Assembly (NCBI RefSeq): GCF_000517445.1
Contig: NZ_CP006965.1
Span: 620,001-684,000 of the forward strand
DNA from: Thermococcus paralvinellae
Lineage (GTDB): Archaea; Methanobacteriota_B; Thermococci; Thermococcales; Thermococcaceae
Reading direction: 5' to 3'
Length of the DNA stretch: 64,000 nucleotides
The notes beneath the pieces are model-generated. The model saw only the letters and a list, made by a program, of their open reading frames with translations. It was not told the origin of the DNA and did not search any database. A program made the translations under genes and the position numbers. Shown piece after piece: positions 26,899 to 51,685 of the stretch (position 1 is the first letter of the stretch; each line of letters opens with the position of its first letter).

Positions 26899-27213
26899 TT
26901 AAGGTTCTATCGCATTCATCTTAGATAATGCTTCAAGAAGTTTGGATTTTATCTCTTCTTTGTCAACGAGATTTTTCAGAGGGACAACTATTTTGTCCGA
27001 ACCTTCAAATTCATCTGCATGAATTACAGAAGCAACTATTATGTCTGCATCACTTGATTTTGCAGTTAAGAGTTCTGTATGTTCCACTTTTGCTGGGATC
27101 CCAAGTTCTTTCAAAACATCCTCTACAAACATCCTCATTATTAACGAACTACCTTGACCAACACCACAAACTGTAAGTATTTTTAACTGCCTATCAAGCT
27201 TATATTTCACCAT
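26899..27213 (-). CDS. PTS system IIB protein, ascorbate (UlaB/SgaB) type
   Basis: This 104-aa IIB protein has the phosphocysteine in LKILTVCGVGQGSSLIMRM (C16), typical of the lactose/ascorbate-galactitol IIB fold. It takes phosphate from a IIA histidine and passes it to sugar bound in IIC. GGGGTGG precedes the ATG. It lies 71 bases behind the IIC gene in the same direction, so both should be read from the promoter in the 28593-28714 repeat. Confidence 0.85.
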   Translation of the reverse strand: MVKYKLDRQLKILTVCGVGQGSSLIMRMFVEDVLKELGIPAKVEHTELLTAKSSDADIIVASVIHADEFEGSDKIVVPLKNLVDKEEIKSKLLEALSKMNAIEP

Positions 27214-27284: not shown

Positions 27285-28577
27285 TCAGAAGATTGCACCT
27301 AGTATAGCCTTAAGGATTGCAACTATAGCGTACCAATCTGGATCTCCAAGCGTTGCGAGTTCAGCACCATATGTTAAGAATTGTAAGGTTAATGCTTGTC
27401 CAATTGCTAATATGAATCCGTTAAGTGCTCCTGCAAACACCGCACCTTTCCATCCTCCAGTTTTGTTTCCAAAGACTGCTGCTGCACCACCGGGGAAGAA
27501 CAGCATTATCATTGGGGGAACTATTACTGCAAATCCTGTGGCTATGAACAGTGCCATCATTACTAAGAACATACCAAGACCGCTCAAGAAACCAATAATA
27601 ACTGCTGTTGGAGCATATGGGAATACAACTGGACAGTCAACAGCTGGGATAGCTCCTGGAATAACTTTCTCCGAAATTCCTTTGAATGCTGGGACAATCT
27701 CCCCAACAAACATTTTAACACCCGTAAGGAGCACAACAATTGCTGCTGCGAAGTAAACGCCTCTTAAGACTGCCCATATTATTGGGTTTAAATCTCCTGC
27801 TAAGTTCGCTACTGTATCTGGTGTCTTGATGTATCCAGCTATAGCTGCAACAACCATAATAATTCCCAAGATGACAGCAGTGCTGACAGCATAATCTTTT
27901 AAGAATGAGAGTGCTCTTGGTAGGGTTATATTTTCAGTACTCTCCTCAGGTTTTCCAATACGTTTTCCTACATGGTATGAGATTAATGCTACAAGTGATG
28001 ATGTATGTGCATAACCGATAGCATCAGAGCCTATTATATCTCTCATTGCATGGTGAATATATGCTGGCTGTATGGTCCAATAAATTGCCATTGTAACTGA
28101 ACCTAGGAGTATAATTTCTTTTGCTGTAGCATTGGGGTTTATGGTCAAAATCACTGCAACAACTAACAATGATACCCACCACATGAGATGACCAGTTAGA
28201 TATACATGGCGGAGCTTAGGCACGACTCTTACAAGTATTAAGTGTATGATAAAAGCAACTGTCATTATAACTGCAGCATAACTTCCATATTGGCTTATCA
28301 AGTCATTTAATGGCACATAATTAGGCGGATACTTTGGAGCAACTCCTGTTGCAGCGGTTATAAGGGATTGGAAGTTTACCAGCTCATCAACGAACAATCC
28401 TGCTCCAGCAAGCATCATAACTACTCCAATCATGACCTTTGCTGTTCCTGTCAATACTTCATTGAAAGGCTTCTTCTGGAGCACTAGTCCAACAAATGCC
28501 ACTATACCCAAAAGGATTGCAGGTTGTCCAAGAATATTCGTTCCAATCCAGGTCAAGACATCCATAAAGGCAGCCAT
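27285..28577 (-). CDS. PTS system IIC permease, ascorbate (UlaA/SgaT) type
   Basis: This 430-aa integral membrane protein has about 11 helices. The LVLQKKPFNEVLTGTAKVMIGVVML segment near residues 30-54 and the GYAHTSSLVALISYHVGKRIGKPEESTEN loop near 190-218 match UlaA-type IIC permeases of the AG superfamily, which transport L-ascorbate in bacteria. Substrate may differ here, because the linked catabolic genes concern amino sugars. ATG at 28577 follows GGTGATC by five bases. Its promoter is one copy of the 122-bp inverted repeat. Confidence 0.88.
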   Translation of the reverse strand: MAAFMDVLTWIGTNILGQPAILLGIVAFVGLVLQKKPFNEVLTGTAKVMIGVVMMLAGAGLFVDELVNFQSLITAATGVAPKYPPNYVPLNDLISQYGSYAAVIMTVAFIIHLILVRVVPKLRHVYLTGHLMWWVSLLVVAVILTINPNATAKEIILLGSVTMAIYWTIQPAYIHHAMRDIIGSDAIGYAHTSSLVALISYHVGKRIGKPEESTENITLPRALSFLKDYAVSTAVILGIIMVVAAIAGYIKTPDTVANLAGDLNPIIWAVLRGVYFAAAIVVLLTGVKMFVGEIVPAFKGISEKVIPGAIPAVDCPVVFPYAPTAVIIGFLSGLGMFLVMMALFIATGFAVIVPPMIMLFFPGGAAAVFGNKTGGWKGAVFAGALNGFILAIGQALTLQFLTYGAELATLGDPDWYAIVAILKAILGAIF

Positions 28578-28970
28578 GAGGATCACCAATATTAGTTTTT
28601 GGGCTTTGTTTATATATTTTTTGGTGATTGGGTTGTTGTTATTGTCGTATTTGGCGTATAAAGCTTGTATAGTTCTTTGTTGTTGAAATAGACAGACGAC
28701 GTTATCATTTGTAACTACTAAGGAATATCTAACAATCTGCTATCATTTCCTAATATTCTTCTGAGATATGTCATATCCTGTAGTTGTTATAACTACTATT
28801 TTTCGTAATACAACGGATAATCGTGTCACTTACAGTTTGGTATTTATCAAGATTTCTTCTAAAAATATTGAATAATGTAATTCAAAGACTAACTAAAATC
28901 CCTCAAATTTGCCATAATAACACTTAAATATCAAGTGATAACTATCTATATATGGGTGGTTAGTACGAGT
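28578..28970. other. Divergent control region between IIC and the Orc1-like gene
   Basis: From left: IIC leader, the 122-bp repeat with the IIC promoter, then about 200 bases with a dyad GTAGTT-GTTAT-AACTAC (28780-28796) and a TTTTCGTAATACA element (28800-28812). The reverse complement of the latter recurs at 32943-32955, at nearly the same distance from the other repeat copy. The Orc1-like promoter (TATA CTATATATG, 28945-28953) ends the region. No coding sequence seen. Confidence 0.6.
28593..28714 (-). repeat. 122-bp perfect inverted repeat, copy 1 (IIC promoter)
   Basis: Every base is the reverse complement of 33038-33159; I checked it in ten-base blocks with no mismatch. Read on the minus strand it runs from TTACAAATGATAAC to CCCAAAAACTA and includes a BRE/TATA (CACCAAAAAATATATAAAC) near its promoter-proximal end, 35-50 bases before the IIC ATG. 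Upstream of the TATA lies a near-palindrome TATACAAGCTTTATA (28657-28671) and CAACAA-type repeats, both candidate regulator sites. Confidence 0.93.
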
Positions 28971-30233
28971 ATGAAGTTTAATCTCAAGGAAATTCTACGT
29001 GATGAGATGCAAAAAAAGACTATCATCATAAATCCCGGTGTTCTTACGGAGAGCTATGTGCCTGATTATCTGTTGTTTAGAGATGAGGAAGTTGCTCAAA
29101 TAACTAGGCATCTCGGTAGGTATTTAAGTGGAATCCAACCAGGGAATCTGTTAATTCATGGACCCCCTGGAACTGGGAAAACTCATGCTATAAAAATCGT
29201 TGCAAAAAGTTATAATGAATTTGTAAACGAGACTGGCATTAATTCAAAAATAATCTACATCAATTGTAAAGATAAAACATACTACCAAACCTTAGTCGCT
29301 CTATTGCATGGATTGGGAGTTGAGTTTCCAGAGAGAGGTCTCGGTGTATCTGAAGCTGTTGAAGCTCTAACTTTATACTTAAAGGAGAGCAACGGAAGGC
29401 ATGTCTTCGTTTTTGATGAGATAGATAAGCTAAAACGAACATATAGAGACAAAGAGGAGCCTATGAATGCCCTAATTTACAGGATGTCTAGATTAGATGA
29501 ACTTCTAGACAAGGAAGGTCCATTAATTATCATGATTTCAAACAAAAGCAACATAATTGAGAAGATTGAACATGCAACGAGGGCAAAATTTACTCCTCAA
29601 ACTATTTATTTTAGAGAATATAACATTGAGGAATTATATCAAATCTTATTAGATAGAGCTGAACGAGCGCTTGCTCCCGGAAGTTTTACTACAGAGGCAA
29701 TAGCATACTTGGCAGATCTTGTAAAAAAGAATGAGCGAGATTTAAGATGGGGTTTTAGAGTCTTAATTGAAGCTGCACTAAGAGCTCATGATAAACTCAC
29801 AACAGAGCTCATTGACGAAGCGGTCAATGTCGTTGATAATGACATGCTCTCACAAGTAGTTCACTCCCTAAGTAACCATCAACTGATTGTTCTTTGGGCA
29901 GTTGCATTTTTGGAAAACGTTAAAATATTACCCGTGACTGGAGAGTTGTATCATGTATACAAACTGGTTTGTGAAGAAGTTGGATTAAAGCCTAGAAGCA
30001 TGAGGCATGTCATGCATTATATAACACCGAAGATTGAAAGCATGGGACTGATTACTTCTAGAGAGAAGGGTCAAGGAAGAGGGAGAGGAAAAACTCTTGT
30101 TTTCCATTTAGAAGAAAACCCAGAAAAGATACTAAAGCTGGTTGAATCTGTTCTCTCAGAAAGGATGCATAAAGAGTTCAAGCCTGAAGAGATTCCAGAG
30201 TTCATTCAGATAAGCTTTCAAAGGAGGCGGTGA
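28971..30233 (+). CDS. Orc1/Cdc6-family AAA+ ATPase within the PTS locus
   Basis: This 420-aa protein has Walker A GPPGTGKT at residues 64-71, Walker B VFVFDEID at 145-152, sensor 1 IIMISNKSN near 180, a sensor-2 region NERDLRWGFRVLIEAA, and a C-terminal winged helix (about 300-395) with a basic GQGRGRGK stretch. The layout is that of archaeal Orc1/Cdc6, but I find no origin-like repeats nearby and the gene is followed five bases later by PTS genes. A DNA-binding regulator of the PTS locus is an attractive alternative to a replication role. TATA spacing suggests a leaderless message. Confidence 0.8.
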   Translation: MKFNLKEILRDEMQKKTIIINPGVLTESYVPDYLLFRDEEVAQITRHLGRYLSGIQPGNLLIHGPPGTGKTHAIKIVAKSYNEFVNETGINSKIIYINCKDKTYYQTLVALLHGLGVEFPERGLGVSEAVEALTLYLKESNGRHVFVFDEIDKLKRTYRDKEEPMNALIYRMSRLDELLDKEGPLIIMISNKSNIIEKIEHATRAKFTPQTIYFREYNIEELYQILLDRAERALAPGSFTTEAIAYLADLVKKNERDLRWGFRVLIEAALRAHDKLTTELIDEAVNVVDNDMLSQVVHSLSNHQLIVLWAVAFLENVKILPVTGELYHVYKLVCEEVGLKPRSMRHVMHYITPKIESMGLITSREKGQGRGRGKTLVFHLEENPEKILKLVESVLSERMHKEFKPEEIPEFIQISFQRRR

Positions 30234-30238
30234 TGTGA

Positions 30239-30715
30239 ATGGATCTTCTTAGAAAAGTTATAAAAGAACTCACCCCTCAAGTGATACAAGTCAACGCAGA
30301 AGTAAGGAACTGGATCGATGCTGTTAAGCTTAGCGGAGAATTGTTATACCAAGTGAGTAAAATCTCTAATACATATATCAAAGCTATGATAAAAACGACA
30401 CAGAAATTAGGTCCTTATGCTGTTATTGCTCCTGGTGTTGCTTTGCCTCATGCTCGACCAGAAGATGGAGCATTAAAAGTAGGGATAAGTGTAGTCACAC
30501 TTAAGAATCCAGTGGATTTTGACTCGCCCAATGATCCAGTTAGGATTGTAATTGCTTTTTCTGCCCCAACAAATTCTCAGCATCTTCAACTTTTGAAAGA
30601 GCTTGCTACGATACTAGGCAATAGAGAGTTCAGGAAAAAGCTCAGACGAGCAGGAAGTCCTGAGGATGTTATCTCAACATTTAGGTGGATTATTCAGGAA
30701 GAGGTGAGGATATGA
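30239..30715 (+). CDS. PTS system IIA protein (mannitol/fructose type), copy 1
   Basis: This 158-aa IIA domain has the phosphorylatable histidine in GVALPHARPEDG (H71), the signature of the fructose/mannitol/ascorbate IIA superfamily. It accepts phosphate from HPr and gives it to IIB. It sits between the Orc1-like gene (five bases) and ptsI (ATGA overlap). The central third is nearly identical to the second IIA at 32363-32833, indicating a duplication. Confidence 0.9.
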   Translation: MDLLRKVIKELTPQVIQVNAEVRNWIDAVKLSGELLYQVSKISNTYIKAMIKTTQKLGPYAVIAPGVALPHARPEDGALKVGISVVTLKNPVDFDSPNDPVRIVIAFSAPTNSQHLQLLKELATILGNREFRKKLRRAGSPEDVISTFRWIIQEEVRI

Positions 30716-32385
30716 CTAAAGAAGTCATCCTTCGAGGAATCGCGGCTTCATGGGGGATTGGCATTGGAAATGCGATTGTTGTTAAAGTTCAGTCTTATAA
30801 AAATACTCCTCAATTAAGAGATAATCCTATTAAAGCACTAGAAAAAACTAAAGAGAGAACTCTGAACATGATTAATGAGCTTATCAGCGAAGTTACACCA
30901 GAAGTTGCCGAAATATTGCGAGCTCATAAATTAATGGTTGAAGCAATCATAGAAGAAGCATTAGAATTGGTAAAGGCTGGAAAAGCACCAGAAGAAGCTA
31001 TAACTATAGTTACGGACAAATACATAGAACTCCTGAAAAATTCAGGTTCTGCAGTAATCCAGCTAAGAAGTGATGATCTTGTTGATATAAAGAACACTCT
31101 ACTCCAGAATCTTTTGGAAGGTGAAGATTTCAATATCAAAGAAAATTCAGTCGTCGTTGCAAAAGAGATTTATCCATCCCAGCTTATTAAATACTCAAAA
31201 AAAGGTGTAGTTGGTGTTGTAACAGAGAAAGGAAGCTACACCTCGCATGCTGCTATAATAGCAAGAAATCTAAAGATACCAATTGTGTTCGGAATCAAAG
31301 ACGCCACGAAGATCATCAATGACGGCAATTTGGTAATTGTCGATGGATTCTCGGGTAATCTTATCGTTAATCCTTGTGAAAGCACAATAAAGAAGTATAT
31401 AAAAAGGAAGGAGATTTTTCGGGGCTTATTTAAAAAATTCGAAGATGGAAAAGATGAAATTGCTGAAACTAAAGATGGGAGAAAAATCCTCGTAATGGCA
31501 AACGTGGGGAATGAAGATGACCTAAATACCGCATTGCTGAATGGCTGTGATGGTGTGGGTCTCTTTAGGCTAGAGTTCTACTTTATGAACACCAACTCTT
31601 TACCATCTCCTCAAGAGCTGGCTCAAATCTTTGAAAAATTTGCTAAGAAGCTTGAAGGAAAGCCCCTGACACTTAGACTCCTAGACATTGGAGGAGACAA
31701 AGAGATACCCTATTTAGAGATCCCAAAAGAACACAATCCATTCCTTGGTCTCAGAGGAATTAGATATCTCCTTAAGCATGAAAAACTGCTTAAAAACCAA
31801 CTTGAGGCAATAAAATTGGTGAAATATAAAAACATGAAGATCATGGTACCCATGGTTAGTACAGTTGAGGAGATTAGGGAACTTAAAAAAATAATTGAAA
31901 AAGATAAAGGTGACAAGAAGATTGGCATAATGGCGGAAGTACCTTCAATAGTGTTCATGGCAGATAAGATAATGAAGGAGATCGATTTCATAAGCATAGG
32001 GACGAATGATCTCACTCAATACATATTCGCTGTGGACAGAACAAATGAAGATGTCTCATATCTATACGATGATATGCATCCAGCTGTTTTAAGAGCCATT
32101 GCTATGCTTACAAAAGAGGCACAAAGGGCTAATGTCCCAGTAGAGGTATGTGGAGAGCTTGCAGGAAATCCCCTTGCTGTGCCAATTCTTATTGGTCTCG
32201 GCATAACTGAGCTTAGCGTTTCCCCGACTTTGATTCCAATGATAAAATGGATAATACAGAGGTTATCGTATAGGGAAGCCAAGGAATTAGTGAAAAGGGT
32301 GCTCGAATTGGAGAATGGGGAGGAAGTAAGAGAAGAGGTTAGGAAATTCTTTAAGAATATACTTAAGATTGAGCTTCCTTGGTAG
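30712..32385 (+). CDS. ptsI: PTS enzyme I (phosphoenolpyruvate-protein phosphotransferase)
   Basis: This 557-aa enzyme I takes phosphate from PEP and passes it to HPr. The N-terminal swivelling domain carries the active histidine in GSYTSHAAIIARNL (H179); the C-terminal TIM barrel shows the PEP-site motifs GVGLFRLEF, RLLDIGGDKE, MAEVPS, GTNDLTQY and VCGELAGNP. Length matches bacterial enzyme I. ATG at 30712 overlaps the IIA stop and follows GAGGTGA. The 3' end overlaps the convergent second IIA gene by 23 bases. Confidence 0.93.
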   Translation: MTKEVILRGIAASWGIGIGNAIVVKVQSYKNTPQLRDNPIKALEKTKERTLNMINELISEVTPEVAEILRAHKLMVEAIIEEALELVKAGKAPEEAITIVTDKYIELLKNSGSAVIQLRSDDLVDIKNTLLQNLLEGEDFNIKENSVVVAKEIYPSQLIKYSKKGVVGVVTEKGSYTSHAAIIARNLKIPIVFGIKDATKIINDGNLVIVDGFSGNLIVNPCESTIKKYIKRKEIFRGLFKKFEDGKDEIAETKDGRKILVMANVGNEDDLNTALLNGCDGVGLFRLEFYFMNTNSLPSPQELAQIFEKFAKKLEGKPLTLRLLDIGGDKEIPYLEIPKEHNPFLGLRGIRYLLKHEKLLKNQLEAIKLVKYKNMKIMVPMVSTVEEIRELKKIIEKDKGDKKIGIMAEVPSIVFMADKIMKEIDFISIGTNDLTQYIFAVDRTNEDVSYLYDDMHPAVLRAIAMLTKEAQRANVPVEVCGELAGNPLAVPILIGLGITELSVSPTLIPMIKWIIQRLSYREAKELVKRVLELENGEEVREEVRKFFKNILKIELPW

Positions 32386-32833
32386 TGCTTTTTTCATATG
32401 CTTTTATTATTTCCAAAACTTCCTCTGGAGTCTTTGCAGACATAATCTCTCTTCTGAAGTCTTCATTTGATAGCAATAACGCTAATTCTTGAAGTATGGT
32501 TATGTGAGAACTCTTATCGGGAGCTGAAAAAGCCATTACGACCTTAACTGGATCATTGGGTGAGCCAAAATTTATGGGATCTTTCAATACAACTATGCTG
32601 AATCCTACTTTTAATGCTCCATCTTCTGGTCGAGCATGAGGCAAAGCAACACCAGGAGCAATAACAGCATAAGGACCTAGCTCCTTTATTGTTCTAATCA
32701 TTCCGTCGATGTATTCTCTTGTAATTTTCCCAGTTTTATAGAGCAGTTCACCAGCTATTCTTACACTTTCCTGCCAATCTTTAACCTTAACTTGGGTTAG
32801 AATTTCTTGGACAGATATATGCTCCTCAAGCAT
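32363..32833 (-). CDS. PTS system IIA protein, copy 2
   Basis: This 156-aa paralog of the IIA at 30239 shares the GPYAVIAPGVALPHARPEDGALKVG region, with active histidine H66, and the SPNDPV and LLKEL/LQELA segments; the ends have diverged. ATG at 32833 follows GGTGG and a TATA (ATATTTATAAATT) lies upstream on the minus strand, so it has its own transcript. Two IIA proteins for one IIB/IIC set suggest either a regulatory IIA or a second target. Confidence 0.9.
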   Translation of the reverse strand: MLEEHISVQEILTQVKVKDWQESVRIAGELLYKTGKITREYIDGMIRTIKELGPYAVIAPGVALPHARPEDGALKVGFSIVVLKDPINFGSPNDPVKVVMAFSAPDKSSHITILQELALLLSNEDFRREIMSAKTPEEVLEIIKAYEKSTTKEAQS

Positions 32834-33214
32834 TATTTCCACCAAATACATTTCTAAAGGTTTAATTTATAAATATATCTTCCATAGTGTTTGTATCGAT
32901 AAAATAGAGAGATTACATTTGTTCTCAGAGATATTTATCGGATGTATTACGAAAATAAATAGTTACTTTTCAGGATTATTTTAATTCTTTTTTTCCAAAA
33001 CTTCAAACTCAATTAACTTACCTTGGAAGGGGCAGAATTACAAATGATAACGTCGTCTGTCTATTTCAACAACAAAGAACTATACAAGCTTTATACGCCA
33101 AATACGACAATAACAACAACCCAATCACCAAAAAATATATAAACAAAGCCCAAAAACTAGGATATGGGTGTCATCTTACTTTTCATCTCGGAATAATCTC
33201 TGGAGGAAATAACC
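32834..33214. other. Divergent control region between IIA-2 and ptsH
   Basis: This region contains the IIA-2 promoter (minus strand, about 32860-32880), the TGTATTACGAAAA element (32943-32955) shared with the other control region, T-rich sequence, the 122-bp repeat with the ptsH promoter, and a roughly 48-base ptsH leader with GGAGG. No gene seen. Confidence 0.6.
33038..33159 (+). repeat. 122-bp perfect inverted repeat, copy 2 (ptsH promoter)
   Basis: This is the reverse-complement copy of 28593-28714, oriented towards ptsH. The TATA box (AAAATATATAAAC, 33132-33144) with BRE (CACCAAA) predicts a transcript start near 33167, just beyond the repeat. The two copies therefore share everything upstream of the start but have different leaders. 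The candidate operator TATACAAGCTTTATA lies at 33081-33095. Confidence 0.93.
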
Positions 33215-33487
33215 ATGATAGAAAAAAGAGTGGAAATTAAAAACAAGAGTGGACTTCACGCACGACCGGCAGCAGTTTTCGTTGAGACAACTAAAAAGTT
33301 TAAATCAAAAATAACAGTGATAAAAGAGGGCAAATCGGCAGATGCGAAGAATATATTACAGATTCTGGCACTTGGAGTAGATTATGGAGATGAAATTGTA
33401 CTGCAAATTAGCGGAGAAGATGAAGAAGAAGCTGCAAGGGAGTTAATTGATTTACTAGAGCGTGTTTTACCTTCAGAAGACAAGTAA
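33215..33487 (+). CDS. ptsH: Phosphocarrier protein HPr
   Basis: This 90-aa HPr has the active-site histidine in KSGLHARPAA (H15), the normal position. It carries phosphate from enzyme I to IIA. The regulatory serine-46 of Gram-positive HPr is asparagine here (DAKNILQILALGV), so HPr-kinase control is not expected. GGAGG lies eight bases before the ATG. It is the first gene of an operon with two SIS proteins and NagA, read from the 122-bp promoter cassette. Confidence 0.95.
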   Translation: MIEKRVEIKNKSGLHARPAAVFVETTKKFKSKITVIKEGKSADAKNILQILALGVDYGDEIVLQISGEDEEEAARELIDLLERVLPSEDK

Positions 33488-33498
33488 AGGGATAGAAA

Positions 33499-35067
33499 AT
33501 GTTTGGAAATTTGGGTATACTTTGGAAGCTTGAAGACGGTTCTCACGTCCTAACATCTTTGGATTATCCTCATGACATTATTATTTTGAACAAGTCTGTT
33601 AAGATATATCATAACAAAACTCTTTCCAATGTAAACTACCCTGAGAGATTCATATTCACGAACAATCGATATGAAACTGGGCTAGAATCGATATATATCT
33701 CCAAAAATCCAAAATTAGTCGTAGCCTTTGAAGGTGTTGCAGATTTTGAAATGATATTTGATGAGATTCTCATTAGTCTAAACGATAGTAACATAGATAG
33801 TAACATGCTTAGCCTCCTAAAGAATAGTGAGGGAGTTTTCTCTGTAGTTGGATATTACAAAAAGGGAGAAGATGAGAGGATATTTGCCTTTTCTAACTAT
33901 CGCCAAATCTATGTAGATAAGGGCATCATAACAACCATTAAAATACCCAAAGCAAGTTACATTTTGTCCACTAACTCCTTGATAACATGGAGTCCAAACG
34001 AGTTTTTAGGTGTAACTAAGAAAACACCTGAAGGGTCAACTGAAATACCCACATACAAACATTTCATGCTGGAAGAAATTCATGAAACTCCATACATCCT
34101 TAGGCGTCTTCACGCACTTAGCAGAGACAGGAGAATTAAGGAATCGGCAGTTTTGCTTCAAAATGCTGAAAAAACTTATGTAATAGGTAATGGCTCCTCA
34201 TTAAATGCTGGTTTTGTACTTCCATATTTGCTTCAAGATTTTGATATTGTTCCAATGTCATCACTCGAGTTCATGTTATACAAGCTCGATAAAGTGAGCA
34301 AGGACGACTTAATAATAGCAATAACTCAATCAGGAAACACTTGGGGCGTGGTAGAGGCTTTGAAAAAACTAAGGGCATCACAAGTTAAGATAGTTTCTAT
34401 TACAAACAATCCATTTGGTCGTGTTTCTAAGTATTCTGATGTAATTTTACCAGTTTTAGCAGGTCCTGAGCTTGCAATACCTGCAACAAAAACATTTGCT
34501 GGAACCTTAGGGGTTCTGTATCTGTTATCTTCATCTTTGCTCTCTGATTTATCAAAGGAGCACACATTACTTAAGACTGCAGAGACACTTGAGAGTTCAA
34601 TTTTAGTCTATAACAACAAGGCGAGAACTATTGCAGAGAAACTTCATAGCCCTTCTGGAGGTTACATAATATCAGCTGGATTAACCTTTCCTATAGCAAT
34701 TGAAGGGGCTCTCAAACTTAAGGAAACTGCTTATTCTCATGCTGAAGCGATTGAGCTTGAAGAATATCTCCATGGACCTAGTGCTGCCCTTTCCCAGGAA
34801 ATGTATGCTATCCTTATCCTTCCAGTTGAAAATCTAGCAAGAGAAAGGATACTCAAGAAATTTGACAAATTTGGCATAGGTAACCAAGTCATAATTGGCA
34901 ATCTAGGTGACTTCAAAGATGAAAATGTTGTTCAAATTAATGCAGATGGCATATCCTATCTATTCCATGTAACCCTATTTCTACAGTTCCTTGCATACTG
35001 GTTTGGAGTTTATAGAAAAACTCCTATAGATGCTCCTAGAGGTCTTTCGAAGGTTGTTTCCACATGA
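33499..35067 (+). CDS. GlmS-like SIS protein with degenerate glutaminase domain (probable glucosamine-6-phosphate deaminase)
   Basis: This 522-aa protein has the build of GlmS. The N-terminal 190 residues resemble a class II glutaminase, but the catalytic Cys after Met is Phe (MFGNLG). The linker YKHFMLEEIHETP follows, then two SIS domains: GNGSSLN, TQSGNTWGVVEAL, ATKTFAGTL, EGALKLKETAYSHAEA, EEYLHGP and the C-terminal DAPRGLSKVV. Without glutamine hydrolysis the enzyme should work in the catabolic direction, as archaeal GlmD does, turning glucosamine-6-phosphate into fructose-6-phosphate and ammonia. It sits between HPr and NagA. Confidence 0.82.
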   Translation: MFGNLGILWKLEDGSHVLTSLDYPHDIIILNKSVKIYHNKTLSNVNYPERFIFTNNRYETGLESIYISKNPKLVVAFEGVADFEMIFDEILISLNDSNIDSNMLSLLKNSEGVFSVVGYYKKGEDERIFAFSNYRQIYVDKGIITTIKIPKASYILSTNSLITWSPNEFLGVTKKTPEGSTEIPTYKHFMLEEIHETPYILRRLHALSRDRRIKESAVLLQNAEKTYVIGNGSSLNAGFVLPYLLQDFDIVPMSSLEFMLYKLDKVSKDDLIIAITQSGNTWGVVEALKKLRASQVKIVSITNNPFGRVSKYSDVILPVLAGPELAIPATKTFAGTLGVLYLLSSSLLSDLSKEHTLLKTAETLESSILVYNNKARTIAEKLHSPSGGYIISAGLTFPIAIEGALKLKETAYSHAEAIELEEYLHGPSAALSQEMYAILILPVENLARERILKKFDKFGIGNQVIIGNLGDFKDENVVQINADGISYLFHVTLFLQFLAYWFGVYRKTPIDAPRGLSKVVST

Positions 35068-35079
35068 GGAGGTGTTAAT

Positions 35080-35817
35080 ATGGATGTTATGGAGAAAGCA
35101 TTTAGTATTGTATCAGCCCTATTAGAAAGAGTGAAAAACGAAGAAAGGAAGAATATCAAAAAGGCTGCCAAAACTCTGGCGGAATCACTTAAACGTGATG
35201 GCATTCTACACATAATTGGAGCAGGACACTCAGCAATCATTGGAGAGGAACTAGCTTATAGGGCTGGAGGCCTTGTTCCGGTCAATCCTATAATAAATAC
35301 GGATATCAACGTTTATCATGGAGCTCTTAAATCAACAGAAATGGAACATTTAGAGGGATATGCAGAAGTCATATTGAAGTCAATGAACGTCCAAAAGGAG
35401 GACGTTGTTTTGATCGTATCCAACTCTGGGGTCAATCAATTCCCAGTGGAAGCTGCCATTAAGGCAAAGTCTCTTGGATGTCCTGTAATAGCAATAACTT
35501 CGGTAGAATACTCAAAGAGCTTAGCACCAAGAAACAAATATAACAAACACCTATTTGAAGTTGCTGATGTTGTTATAGACAACAAAGTACCCAGAGGGGA
35601 TGCGGCATTAAAGATCCCGGGATTTGACATGAAAGTCTTCCCAGTGTCTACAATCGTAGTAGCTTTTATAGCTCAGACTCTTGTTGCAGAAGCAATTAAA
35701 ATACTTGTCGAAGAGGAAATAGAACCTCCAGTATTTTTAAGTGCACATTTACCAGGTGCTCAGGAACATAACATCAAGGTTATCGGGAAGTATAAATCAC
35801 GTTTGAAGTATCTTTAA
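35080..35817 (+). CDS. SIS-domain phosphosugar-binding protein (UPF0309-like)
   Basis: This 245-aa protein has one SIS domain: IIGAGHSAIIGEELAYRAGG near residues 44-63, IVSNSGVNQFPVEAA near 109-123 and PVIAITSVEYSKSLAPRN near 130-147. Size and the C-terminal PPVFLSAHLPGAQEHN tail suggest the UPF0309 group, related to MurNAc-6-phosphate etherase and sugar isomerases. Its reaction is unknown; position between the deaminase-like SIS protein and NagA places it in amino-sugar catabolism. ATG at 35080 follows AGGAGGTG. Confidence 0.75.
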   Translation: MDVMEKAFSIVSALLERVKNEERKNIKKAAKTLAESLKRDGILHIIGAGHSAIIGEELAYRAGGLVPVNPIINTDINVYHGALKSTEMEHLEGYAEVILKSMNVQKEDVVLIVSNSGVNQFPVEAAIKAKSLGCPVIAITSVEYSKSLAPRNKYNKHLFEVADVVIDNKVPRGDAALKIPGFDMKVFPVSTIVVAFIAQTLVAEAIKILVEEEIEPPVFLSAHLPGAQEHNIKVIGKYKSRLKYL

Positions 35818-35837
35818 AGTTTTGCAAGGTGAGATAT

Positions 35838-37004
35838 ATGGGAAAGTCAATCCTAACAAATGTGAGAATAATAACACCATTTGAGGAAATTTTCCCAGGA
35901 ACAATTGAAATTGAAAATGGAGTTATAAAGAGAGTTTATGCAGGGAAAAACCCTATAGGTGAGAATTTAGAGGGAAAAATCATTGTTCCTGGATTCATTG
36001 ACATACATACTCATGGAATAGCGGGACTGGACATCACTTACAGTTCTATGAACGGGTCAGAGGACAATGTTGAAGAGACATTGCTTAAGATGAGTGAAAA
36101 ATATTTGAGTCATGGAGTTACTCGGTTTCTCCCTACTACCGTAACTGCGTCACATGAAGTCCTTTTAATTGCCTCTAGAGGAGTGAAAAATGCAATCGCG
36201 TATCAGAAGAAATCTTGCATAGGAGCAATAATTGAAGGGCTTCATCTGGAGGGACCTTATATAAGCAAAGAAAAAAAAGGAGCTCAAAATCCAGAATTTA
36301 TTAGATTACCAAGCATTAAGGAACTCAAAGAGTACTGGGAAGCGTCAGGAGGAAATATAAAAACGATAACCATAGCTCCTGAGCTTGAAGGTTCTGTGGA
36401 GTTTATAAGCTATGCACGGAACCTTGGTATATACATTTCATTAGGACATACAAATGCAACATATGAGAAGACAAAAGCTGCTATTTACGCAGGAGCAAAT
36501 AGGGCTACTCACCTTTACAATGCAATGAGACCGATTAACCATAGAGAACCAGGAGTTATAATTGCTGTTTTAGAAAGTCCTCAAGTTTATCTGGAGATTA
36601 TAACCGACCTAATACACATTTTACCTCAGATAATAAACTTTACAATAGGACACGCTGGAATTGAGAGAATTGTGACGATAACAGATTCAATAATTGCAAC
36701 AGATCTACCGGATGGGGAGTATTCCTTAGGAGGACTAAAAGTTATTGTTAAAGACGGCATATGCAGATTAGAGGATGGAACTTTAGCAGGGAGTACTTTA
36801 ACAATGGACAATGCCTTGAGAAATCTCGTTAGCATCGGTATTCCTCTAAAAGATGCTGTTAGGACTATGACATATAATCCAGCAAGAGCAGTGGGACTCT
36901 ATAAGGTAGGTGCAATATTGCCTAGTTATTCCGCAGACTTGGTAATCATGGATGAAGAACTGAACATTGAGGCGATATACGTGAGAGGAGAACAAGCTAT
37001 ATAG
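35838..37004 (+). CDS. nagA: N-acetylglucosamine-6-phosphate deacetylase
   Basis: This 388-aa amidohydrolase has the metal motif GFIDIHTHGIAGLD (about residues 51-64), GLHLEGPYIS with its metal-ligand glutamate near 137, GHTNATY near 202, ATHLYNAMRP near 222-231, and TDSI(I)ATDLPDG with the catalytic aspartate. It removes acetate from GlcNAc-6-phosphate. It is last in the ptsH operon. ATG at 35838 follows AGGTGA; GTG at 35829 overlaps that site. Confidence 0.93.
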   Translation: MGKSILTNVRIITPFEEIFPGTIEIENGVIKRVYAGKNPIGENLEGKIIVPGFIDIHTHGIAGLDITYSSMNGSEDNVEETLLKMSEKYLSHGVTRFLPTTVTASHEVLLIASRGVKNAIAYQKKSCIGAIIEGLHLEGPYISKEKKGAQNPEFIRLPSIKELKEYWEASGGNIKTITIAPELEGSVEFISYARNLGIYISLGHTNATYEKTKAAIYAGANRATHLYNAMRPINHREPGVIIAVLESPQVYLEIITDLIHILPQIINFTIGHAGIERIVTITDSIIATDLPDGEYSLGGLKVIVKDGICRLEDGTLAGSTLTMDNALRNLVSIGIPLKDAVRTMTYNPARAVGLYKVGAILPSYSADLVIMDEELNIEAIYVRGEQAI

Positions 37005-51372: not shown

Positions 51373-51685
51373 AGAAACCACCGTATTTTATAATGATGAA
51401 ATTCTATAAAAGCTTTGAGTTCACAAAAACCTTTAACCGCTCTGTTTTGAGAAAATGCAAACGTTTAACAAACTTTTCTCAAATAAGTTTTTCTGTTTAG
51501 CAAAATCTTTCGAAACTTTTACATAATAAAAGATGCAGAACGAATAGTTTACGTTCATTAATGACCTGTTTCGAAGCATAACGTGAGATGATGTACTTTA
51601 AAATGCACTATTTTCTTAACCGAAAACTTTATAAAGTCTAGCTACATATGTAATAATGAAGTTACATATGCAGAGGTGATCCGAC
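51373..51685. other. Intergenic region before the secreted-protein cluster
   Basis: The left part should contain the FOR promoter on the minus strand. The middle (51420-51600) is AT-rich with no gene seen. The right end holds a strong BRE/TATA and the palindromic element described separately. Confidence 0.5.
51619..51670 (+). promoter_or_regulatory. Promoter with palindromic operator, copy 1
   Basis: BRE CCGAAAAC and TATA TTTATAAAG (51628-51636) are followed by an inverted repeat CATATGTAA (51645-51653), eight-base spacer, TTACATATG (51662-51670), covering the expected transcript start. A 29-base stretch (51642-51670) is identical to 55909-55937. A repressor binding here would block initiation. 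Confidence 0.75.

Follow-up and report, generated by a model that had tools for sequence, protein, structure and literature searches.

Sugar PTSs are rare in archaea, and a limited literature search returned no account of how they are controlled and nothing on point for a PTS in Thermococcales or for Cdc6 in connection with a PTS. Four described systems offer points of comparison. Orc1-2 of Saccharolobus islandicus is a transcription regulator of the DNA-damage response rather than an initiator, and Orc1-2 non-initiators lack the arginines that read origin recognition boxes (ORBs) (PMC9738581). The locus described here similarly encodes an archaeal protein of the Orc1/Cdc6 family (AAA+ plus winged helix) with a site on its own promoter, for which we propose a regulatory role. 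It differs from Orc1-2 in its proposed target, a sugar PTS, in its site, which is an ORB-like, paired box with core and tail rather than the hexanucleotide ANTTTC, and in its ancestry and setting, as a paralog from a thermococcal plasmid-type clade linked to PTS IIA and enzyme I (EI) genes. The LevR/CelR-type AAA+ activators of Firmicutes have their activity set by PTS phosphorylation (PMC10864463), and the resemblance is one of functional analogy only: an AAA+ regulator of PTS operons, here putatively also under PTS phosphorylation, with sites upstream of the promoter. LevR-type proteins combine PRD, EIIA and EIIB in one chain and serve sigma54 promoters, whereas here IIA is a separate protein, the promoters are of the BRE/TATA type, and a family-model search detected no PRD, EIIA or EIIB domain in the Orc protein. 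Archaeal ORBs resemble the boxes of this locus in having a core of ~14 bp, a short spacer, a CTCT tail and inverted copies around an orc gene, but the core here is TTACANNNGATAAC rather than the canonical TTCCAGTGGAAAC, and the boxes stand at a fixed distance from PTS promoters. Finally, gene conversion equalises chromosome copies in Haloferax volcanii (PMC8223754). As there, homologous copies appear to have been made identical by non-reciprocal transfer, but here the copies concerned are a promoter of 122 bp and a coding stretch of 76 bp, inverted, at a single locus.

The window, i.e., the whole stretch of DNA analysed, spans 64 kb (620001-684000) of one 1,957,742-base archaeal chromosome; features of the PTS locus within it are given in Table 1. 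Based on family models (applied to the window), NagA is an N-acetylglucosamine-6-phosphate deacetylase. The orc paralog lies directly upstream of the IIA and EI genes and probably forms one operon with them; this orc-IIA-EI gene order recurs in genomes G080 and G074. The locus is present in 3 of 94 Thermococcaceae genomes, and the IIC gene is likewise restricted to three: the window genome, G093 (JdFR-02) and G080.

Table 1. Features of the PTS locus and its inverted repeat (window coordinates).
Feature	Position	Strand	Support
PTS IIB	26899..27213	-	PF02302 3e-13
PTS IIC, ascorbate/galactitol superfamily	27285..28577	-	PF03611 5.6e-99; NF006919 441 bits, cut-off 380
Left arm: promoter cassette of IIC-IIB operon, spanning operator box to predicted start of transcription	28593..28714	-	122/122 to right arm
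BRE/TATA CCAAAAAATATATA, IIC-IIB promoter	28611..28624	-	
Operator box TTACAAATGATAAC, then GTCGTCTGTC tail, left	28701..28714	-	kept in 6/6 arms, 3 species; 90 bp from TATA
Inward partner box TACAACGGATA	28809..28819	+	inverted to left operator, 106 bp away
Third box TATCAAGTGATAAC, directly 3' of orc-paralog TATA CTTAAATA	28929..28942	+	same position in G093, G080, G074
Orc1/Cdc6 paralog (AAA+, lid, Cdc6 winged helix), candidate regulator	28971..30233	+	TIGR02928 240.3 bits, cut-off 181.3
PTS IIA-1, orc-linked	30239..30715	+	PF00359 4e-34
76-bp exact inverted run in IIA genes, left member (putative gene-conversion patch)	30408..30483	+	
PTS enzyme I	30715..32385	+	TIGR01417 458 bits
PTS IIA-2, inverted paralog of IIA-1	32363..32851	-	PF00359 6e-34
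76-bp exact inverted run in IIA genes, right member	32604..32679	-	
Inward partner box TACATCCGATA, AATATCTCTG tail	32936..32946	-	inverted to right operator, 103 bp away
Right arm: promoter cassette of ptsH-SIS-SIS-nagA operon	33038..33159	+	122/122 to left arm
Operator box TTACAAATGATAAC, right copy	33038..33051	+	kept in 6/6 arms, 3 species
BRE/TATA CCAAAAAATATATA, ptsH promoter	33128..33141	+	
HPr (ptsH)	33215..33487	+	PF00381 8.5e-30
SIS-domain isomerase/deaminase-like protein, second SIS protein, NagA	33499..37004	+	TIGR00221 327 bits, cut-off 226

The two arms are identical at all 122 bases once one of them is reverse-complemented, confirming the exact inverted repeat reported in an initial annotation of this DNA, and a whole-genome search for the arm found both copies at the locus and no third. 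By calculation, chance would be expected to yield a longest exact inverted repeat of about 16 bp in 64 kb and about 1e-62 exact 122-mers. The arms differ in their targets: the left one faces IIC-IIB on the minus strand and the right one ptsH-SIS-SIS-nagA on the plus strand, with the orc paralog, a PTS IIA gene, the EI gene and a second, inverted IIA gene enclosed between them. The annotation's view that each arm is a promoter cassette aimed at one PTS operon is supported. Using the usual distance from TATA to start, transcripts are predicted to begin about 1-5 bp past the end of the identity, near 28589 and 33163. Terminal inverted repeats of a mobile element were considered and rejected, as only two genomic copies exist and a domain search of the locus proteins found no transposase between the arms.

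The identity starts precisely at a 14-bp operator-like box. While the annotation described the arms correctly, it overlooked this box at their edge, the matching boxes further inside and the 76-bp run shared by the IIA genes; similarly, its regulatory reading stands as to the promoter cassettes but missed the operator pairs and their most plausible reader, the Orc1/Cdc6 gene. Exactly 90 bp separate TTACAAATGATAAC from CCAAAAAATATATA in each arm of the window genome, JdFR-02 and G080, and in each of these six arms from three species an inverted partner box lies inward of the operator, 102-105 bp away. The spacers between paired boxes are AT-rich (27-28% GC vs. 39%). Inverted pairs of the TTACANNNGATAAC box at a spacing of 102-106 bp are nearly exclusive to PTS/orc loci: a search of all 94 genomes for the paired pattern TATCNNNTGTA-N85-112-TACANNNGATA, a motif defined after the fact from a small set of loci, recovered it in four (the window genome, in both regions, G093, G080 and the plasmid pTBMP1, which itself encodes a related orc), and the reversed pattern, used as a control over the same genomes, gave one match. 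The extended box TACANNNGATAANNNNNTCT has three perfect matches in the window genome, two of which are the left- and right-arm operators. The matches do not support a genome-wide regulon for the box, as all three exact matches sit at the PTS locus and one-mismatch matches to the extended box in the window genome occur at control level. The third box, just 3' of the orc TATA, is a candidate site of auto-control; its position directly after that TATA is one that would be expected under self-repression of orc.

Comparison with related genomes bears on how the arms came to be identical. A scan of genome contigs returned only JdFR-02, a metagenome assembly in which the contigs carrying IIC and HPr share their terminal 101 bases, each has a 79-base overlap with the orc contig, and the two ends of the orc contig are these same 101 bases, inverted. 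Overlaps of 101, 79 and 101 bp point to an exact inverted repeat of 123 bp that an assembler with a word length of 101 has cut. The JdFR-02 arms are thus identical to each other over 123 bp, but match the arm of the window at only 98/122 positions (80%), and at each of the 24 positions that differ between the species both arms within a species share the same letter. The repeat ends coincide in the two genomes to within a base or two, with the operator box inside and the region just before the predicted transcript start outside. Since an independent genome repeats the structure with a different sequence, an assembly artefact is unlikely and was rejected.

Because the JdFR-02 arms are mutually identical yet only 80% identical to those of the window, the two copies evolve in concert, which is the co-variation across species that the annotation anticipated under gene conversion. 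Identity within a genome (100% in both the window genome and JdFR-02) exceeds identity between the species (80%), and the computed chance of 0/122 differences between arms under independent drift is about 2e-12. The IIA genes carry a similar imprint. As wholes they follow an old paralog split, with the window IIA-2 grouping with IIA-2 of G080; in their shared 76-bp run, however, silent sites are lineage-specific (both genes read CGACCA in the window and CGTCCT in JdFR-02), and the type-2 residues ALKVG sit in the type-1 IIA gene of the window. We infer from this pattern that gene conversion between the inverted halves explains the concerted evolution; homologous recombination between the halves would homogenise the arms and so keep them identical. 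Selection alone holding 122 bp identical was rejected, as the same bases vary between species.

G080 places limits on the importance of the identity itself. Its arms are only 57% identical to each other, so within-genome identity does not exceed that between species, but both operons and both promoters are kept, and its arms retain only the BRE/TATA, the 14-bp box and the 90 bp between them. The annotation's suggestion that the identity itself serves regulation is therefore not supported, and the case it had named as adverse, relatives that keep the operons without the repeat, is half realised in this genome. Perfect identity is a lineage-specific by-product, probably of recombination, in two lineages. 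The promoter cassette, judged by its sequence, is an old, conserved and functional design, because the boxes and their 90-bp spacing persist in the drifted arms of G080. The zero differences over 122 bp might instead reflect a very recent promoter duplication in this strain, without long-term meaning, but in JdFR-02 the repeat occupies the same position and differs in sequence, and the arms of G080 are homologous and diverged; the duplication is thus older than the species split, and a simple recent duplication, which we regard as extremely improbable, was rejected.

Recombination can occur between the halves of a perfect inverted repeat that encloses a gene segment, inversions are known between the terminal inverted repeats of IS elements (PMC3004938), and the middle contig of JdFR-02 fits either orientation. 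The orc-IIA-EI-IIA segment might therefore be an invertible 4.3-kb switch that alters expression, with the arms as its recombination sites. This appears very unlikely: no recombinase was found among the proteins of the segment, G080, with its diverged arms, shares the orientation of the window, and a flip would leave the outer genes driven as before, since both promoters face outward and are identical. Gene conversion between the halves, possibly accompanied by inversion, is the account of the arms that we retain, and the promoter pair is a clear-cut natural case of concerted evolution in a regulatory sequence no longer than 122 bp.

The protein encoded between the arms scores above the Orc1/Cdc6 family cut-offs (Cdc6_C, 56.7 bits, cut-off 25.1; Cdc6_lid, 30.5, cut-off 27), carries the Pfam domains AAA, Cdc6_lid and Cdc6_C, matches PDB 2v1u at 1e-39 and has intact Walker motifs. 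The combination that marks an initiator (TxRRV plus a SKGRYGRT wing, with canonical ORBs nearby) is not found in it; its winged helix reads SMRHV and GQGRGRGKT, vs. TQRRV and SKGRYGRT in chromosomal Orcs. Orthologues occur in G093 (87% identity), G080 (76%) and G074 (70%), and beyond these it is closest to plasmid and solo relatives: a protein in G001 (51%) that is not near a PTS, and proteins on T. barophilus and T. profundus plasmids (37-38%), with chromosomal Orcs at about 28-30%. By these relationships the paralog belongs to a plasmid-type Orc clade.

Boxes around members of the Orc family share a common layout. On contig 7 of G001, the 51% relative has four flanking TTACACTCGATATC boxes with CTCTC tails, and on contig 18 four iterons TTCACTTGATAAcCACcTCTC adjoin a second, disrupted orc; these iterons (G001:C18, locus L078 4541-4906) form two inverted pairs in 52-bp steps and, with the disrupted gene, resemble what is left of a plasmid origin from this Orc clade. 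ORBs of the chromosomal orc in the window genome follow the pattern TTCCAGTGGAAAY-n-CTCTC, also readable as TTCCAGTGGAAAC-AAAG-GTCTCTTC. In the chromosomal orc region (G000, L079 728-4328) there are at least six canonical ORB cores TTCCAGTGGAA, several with an AAA-CTCT tail. The boxes of the PTS locus, of G001 and of the chromosomal orc thus have in common a ~14-bp core, a short spacer and a CTCT-rich tail. As this layout is common to boxes around Orc relatives, the boxes of the PTS locus probably belong to the ORB type but have an altered core, and the winged-helix residues of the paralog have changed in parallel with that core, comparable to the missing ORB-reading arginines of Orc1-2 non-initiators.

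The link between the Orc paralog and the boxes comes from sequence, and the DNA-binding proteins considered were those of the locus; a different, unlinked regulator might bind the boxes and leave the paralog with another role. We consider this unlikely, given that the boxes track the Orc clade, including the G001 loci that have no PTS, and that family-model search recognised no other DNA-binding protein in the locus. The paralog between the arms is the most likely candidate for the regulator of both PTS operons.

The same affinities could also point to replication. Under this alternative, the boxes and the paralog would be an origin, a captured plasmid replicon that is or was active, with the arms as passengers. 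The intact Walker motifs of an Orc-family protein, its closeness to plasmid and solo relatives, and inverted box pairs flanking AT-rich spacers, as origins look, all fit such an origin, as does the occurrence of the box pair on pTBMP1 without an evident promoter. On that T. barophilus plasmid (G087:C2, L052 4775-4889) the box of the PTS locus forms an inverted pair with 104-bp spacing, and the plasmid's own orc is adjoined by a different ORB-like inverted pair. The pTBMP1 pair is perhaps a plasmid replication or partition element and, lacking an obvious promoter alongside, raises the possibility that such pairs serve Orc as a general platform and are not operators. At the PTS locus, however, the box lies invariantly 90 bp from TATA in six arms while other sequence drifts, and this fixed distance to promoters implies that an origin is not the whole story. 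Each locus has two box regions, each before a PTS operon, and in G074 the pair precedes a PTS operon of another kind; the canonical ORBs are those of the separate chromosomal orc. Nor is a second origin needed, as T. kodakarensis dispenses with Cdc6 and its presumed origin in replication (PMC5663688). We regard an origin as quite unlikely.

Taking together what can be read from the DNA (the cassette, the boxes, their fixed spacing and restriction to these loci, the Orc-IIA-EI linkage and the concerted evolution), we infer binding by the Orc paralog and signalling through IIA. The two arms would be copies of one regulated promoter, co-controlling both outward operons of an amino-sugar PTS. The paralog would bind inverted pairs of TTACANNNGATAAC boxes with their pyrimidine tails, in which the two boxes are separated by about ten helical turns; the box fixed 90 bp upstream of BRE/TATA would suit activation or looping, and the one just after the orc TATA would suit auto-repression. 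From the phosphorylation of the linked IIA or EI, Orc would read whether sugar is flowing, and recombination between the inverted halves would homogenise the arms. We favour, with some confidence, the view that the paralog is a PTS-responsive regulator acting on ORB-derived operators in cassettes kept identical by recombination. To the fuller history, in which a plasmid initiator was domesticated into a PTS-sensing regulator, its ORBs became paired operators 90 bp from promoters and gene conversion acted on the copies, we give an even chance. The locus offers a concrete candidate regulator and operator for an archaeal sugar PTS. If the proposal is true, it would be a second case in archaea of a protein of the replication-initiator family turned gene regulator, and the path from plasmid ORBs to operators would be clear.

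G074 separates the regulator unit from the permease. It has no IIC of the window's family (IIC search of the 94 genomes), and in it the boxes lie upstream of a different, mannose-type PTS operon, with orc-IIA-EI also present; the box pair is imperfect (TACT core) and spaced at 118 bp, and the distance from box to TATA, counted on the sequence, is 86 bp. As G074 pairs orc-IIA-EI with a different PTS, IIA-1 appears to stay with Orc and not with the permease, which would fit a signalling role; IIA-1 could also simply serve transport. With gene names read from translations and not in all cases by database search, the G074 locus (L050 4955-16406) comprises a mannose-type PTS with a fused IIC-IID, IIA, HPr, IIB, two SIS genes and nagA, plus a neutral-ceramidase-like gene and orc-IIA-EI, i.e., the same regulator unit with a different permease. 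Elsewhere in this Thermococcales genome (L080 4331-9892) there is an apparently complete fructose PTS, with EI, IIBC, its own IIA, a 1-phosphofructokinase-like kinase and a DeoR-like regulator. Outside the PTS locus, a 29-bp sequence at 51642 and 55909 is the sole exact direct repeat of at least 25 bp in the window.
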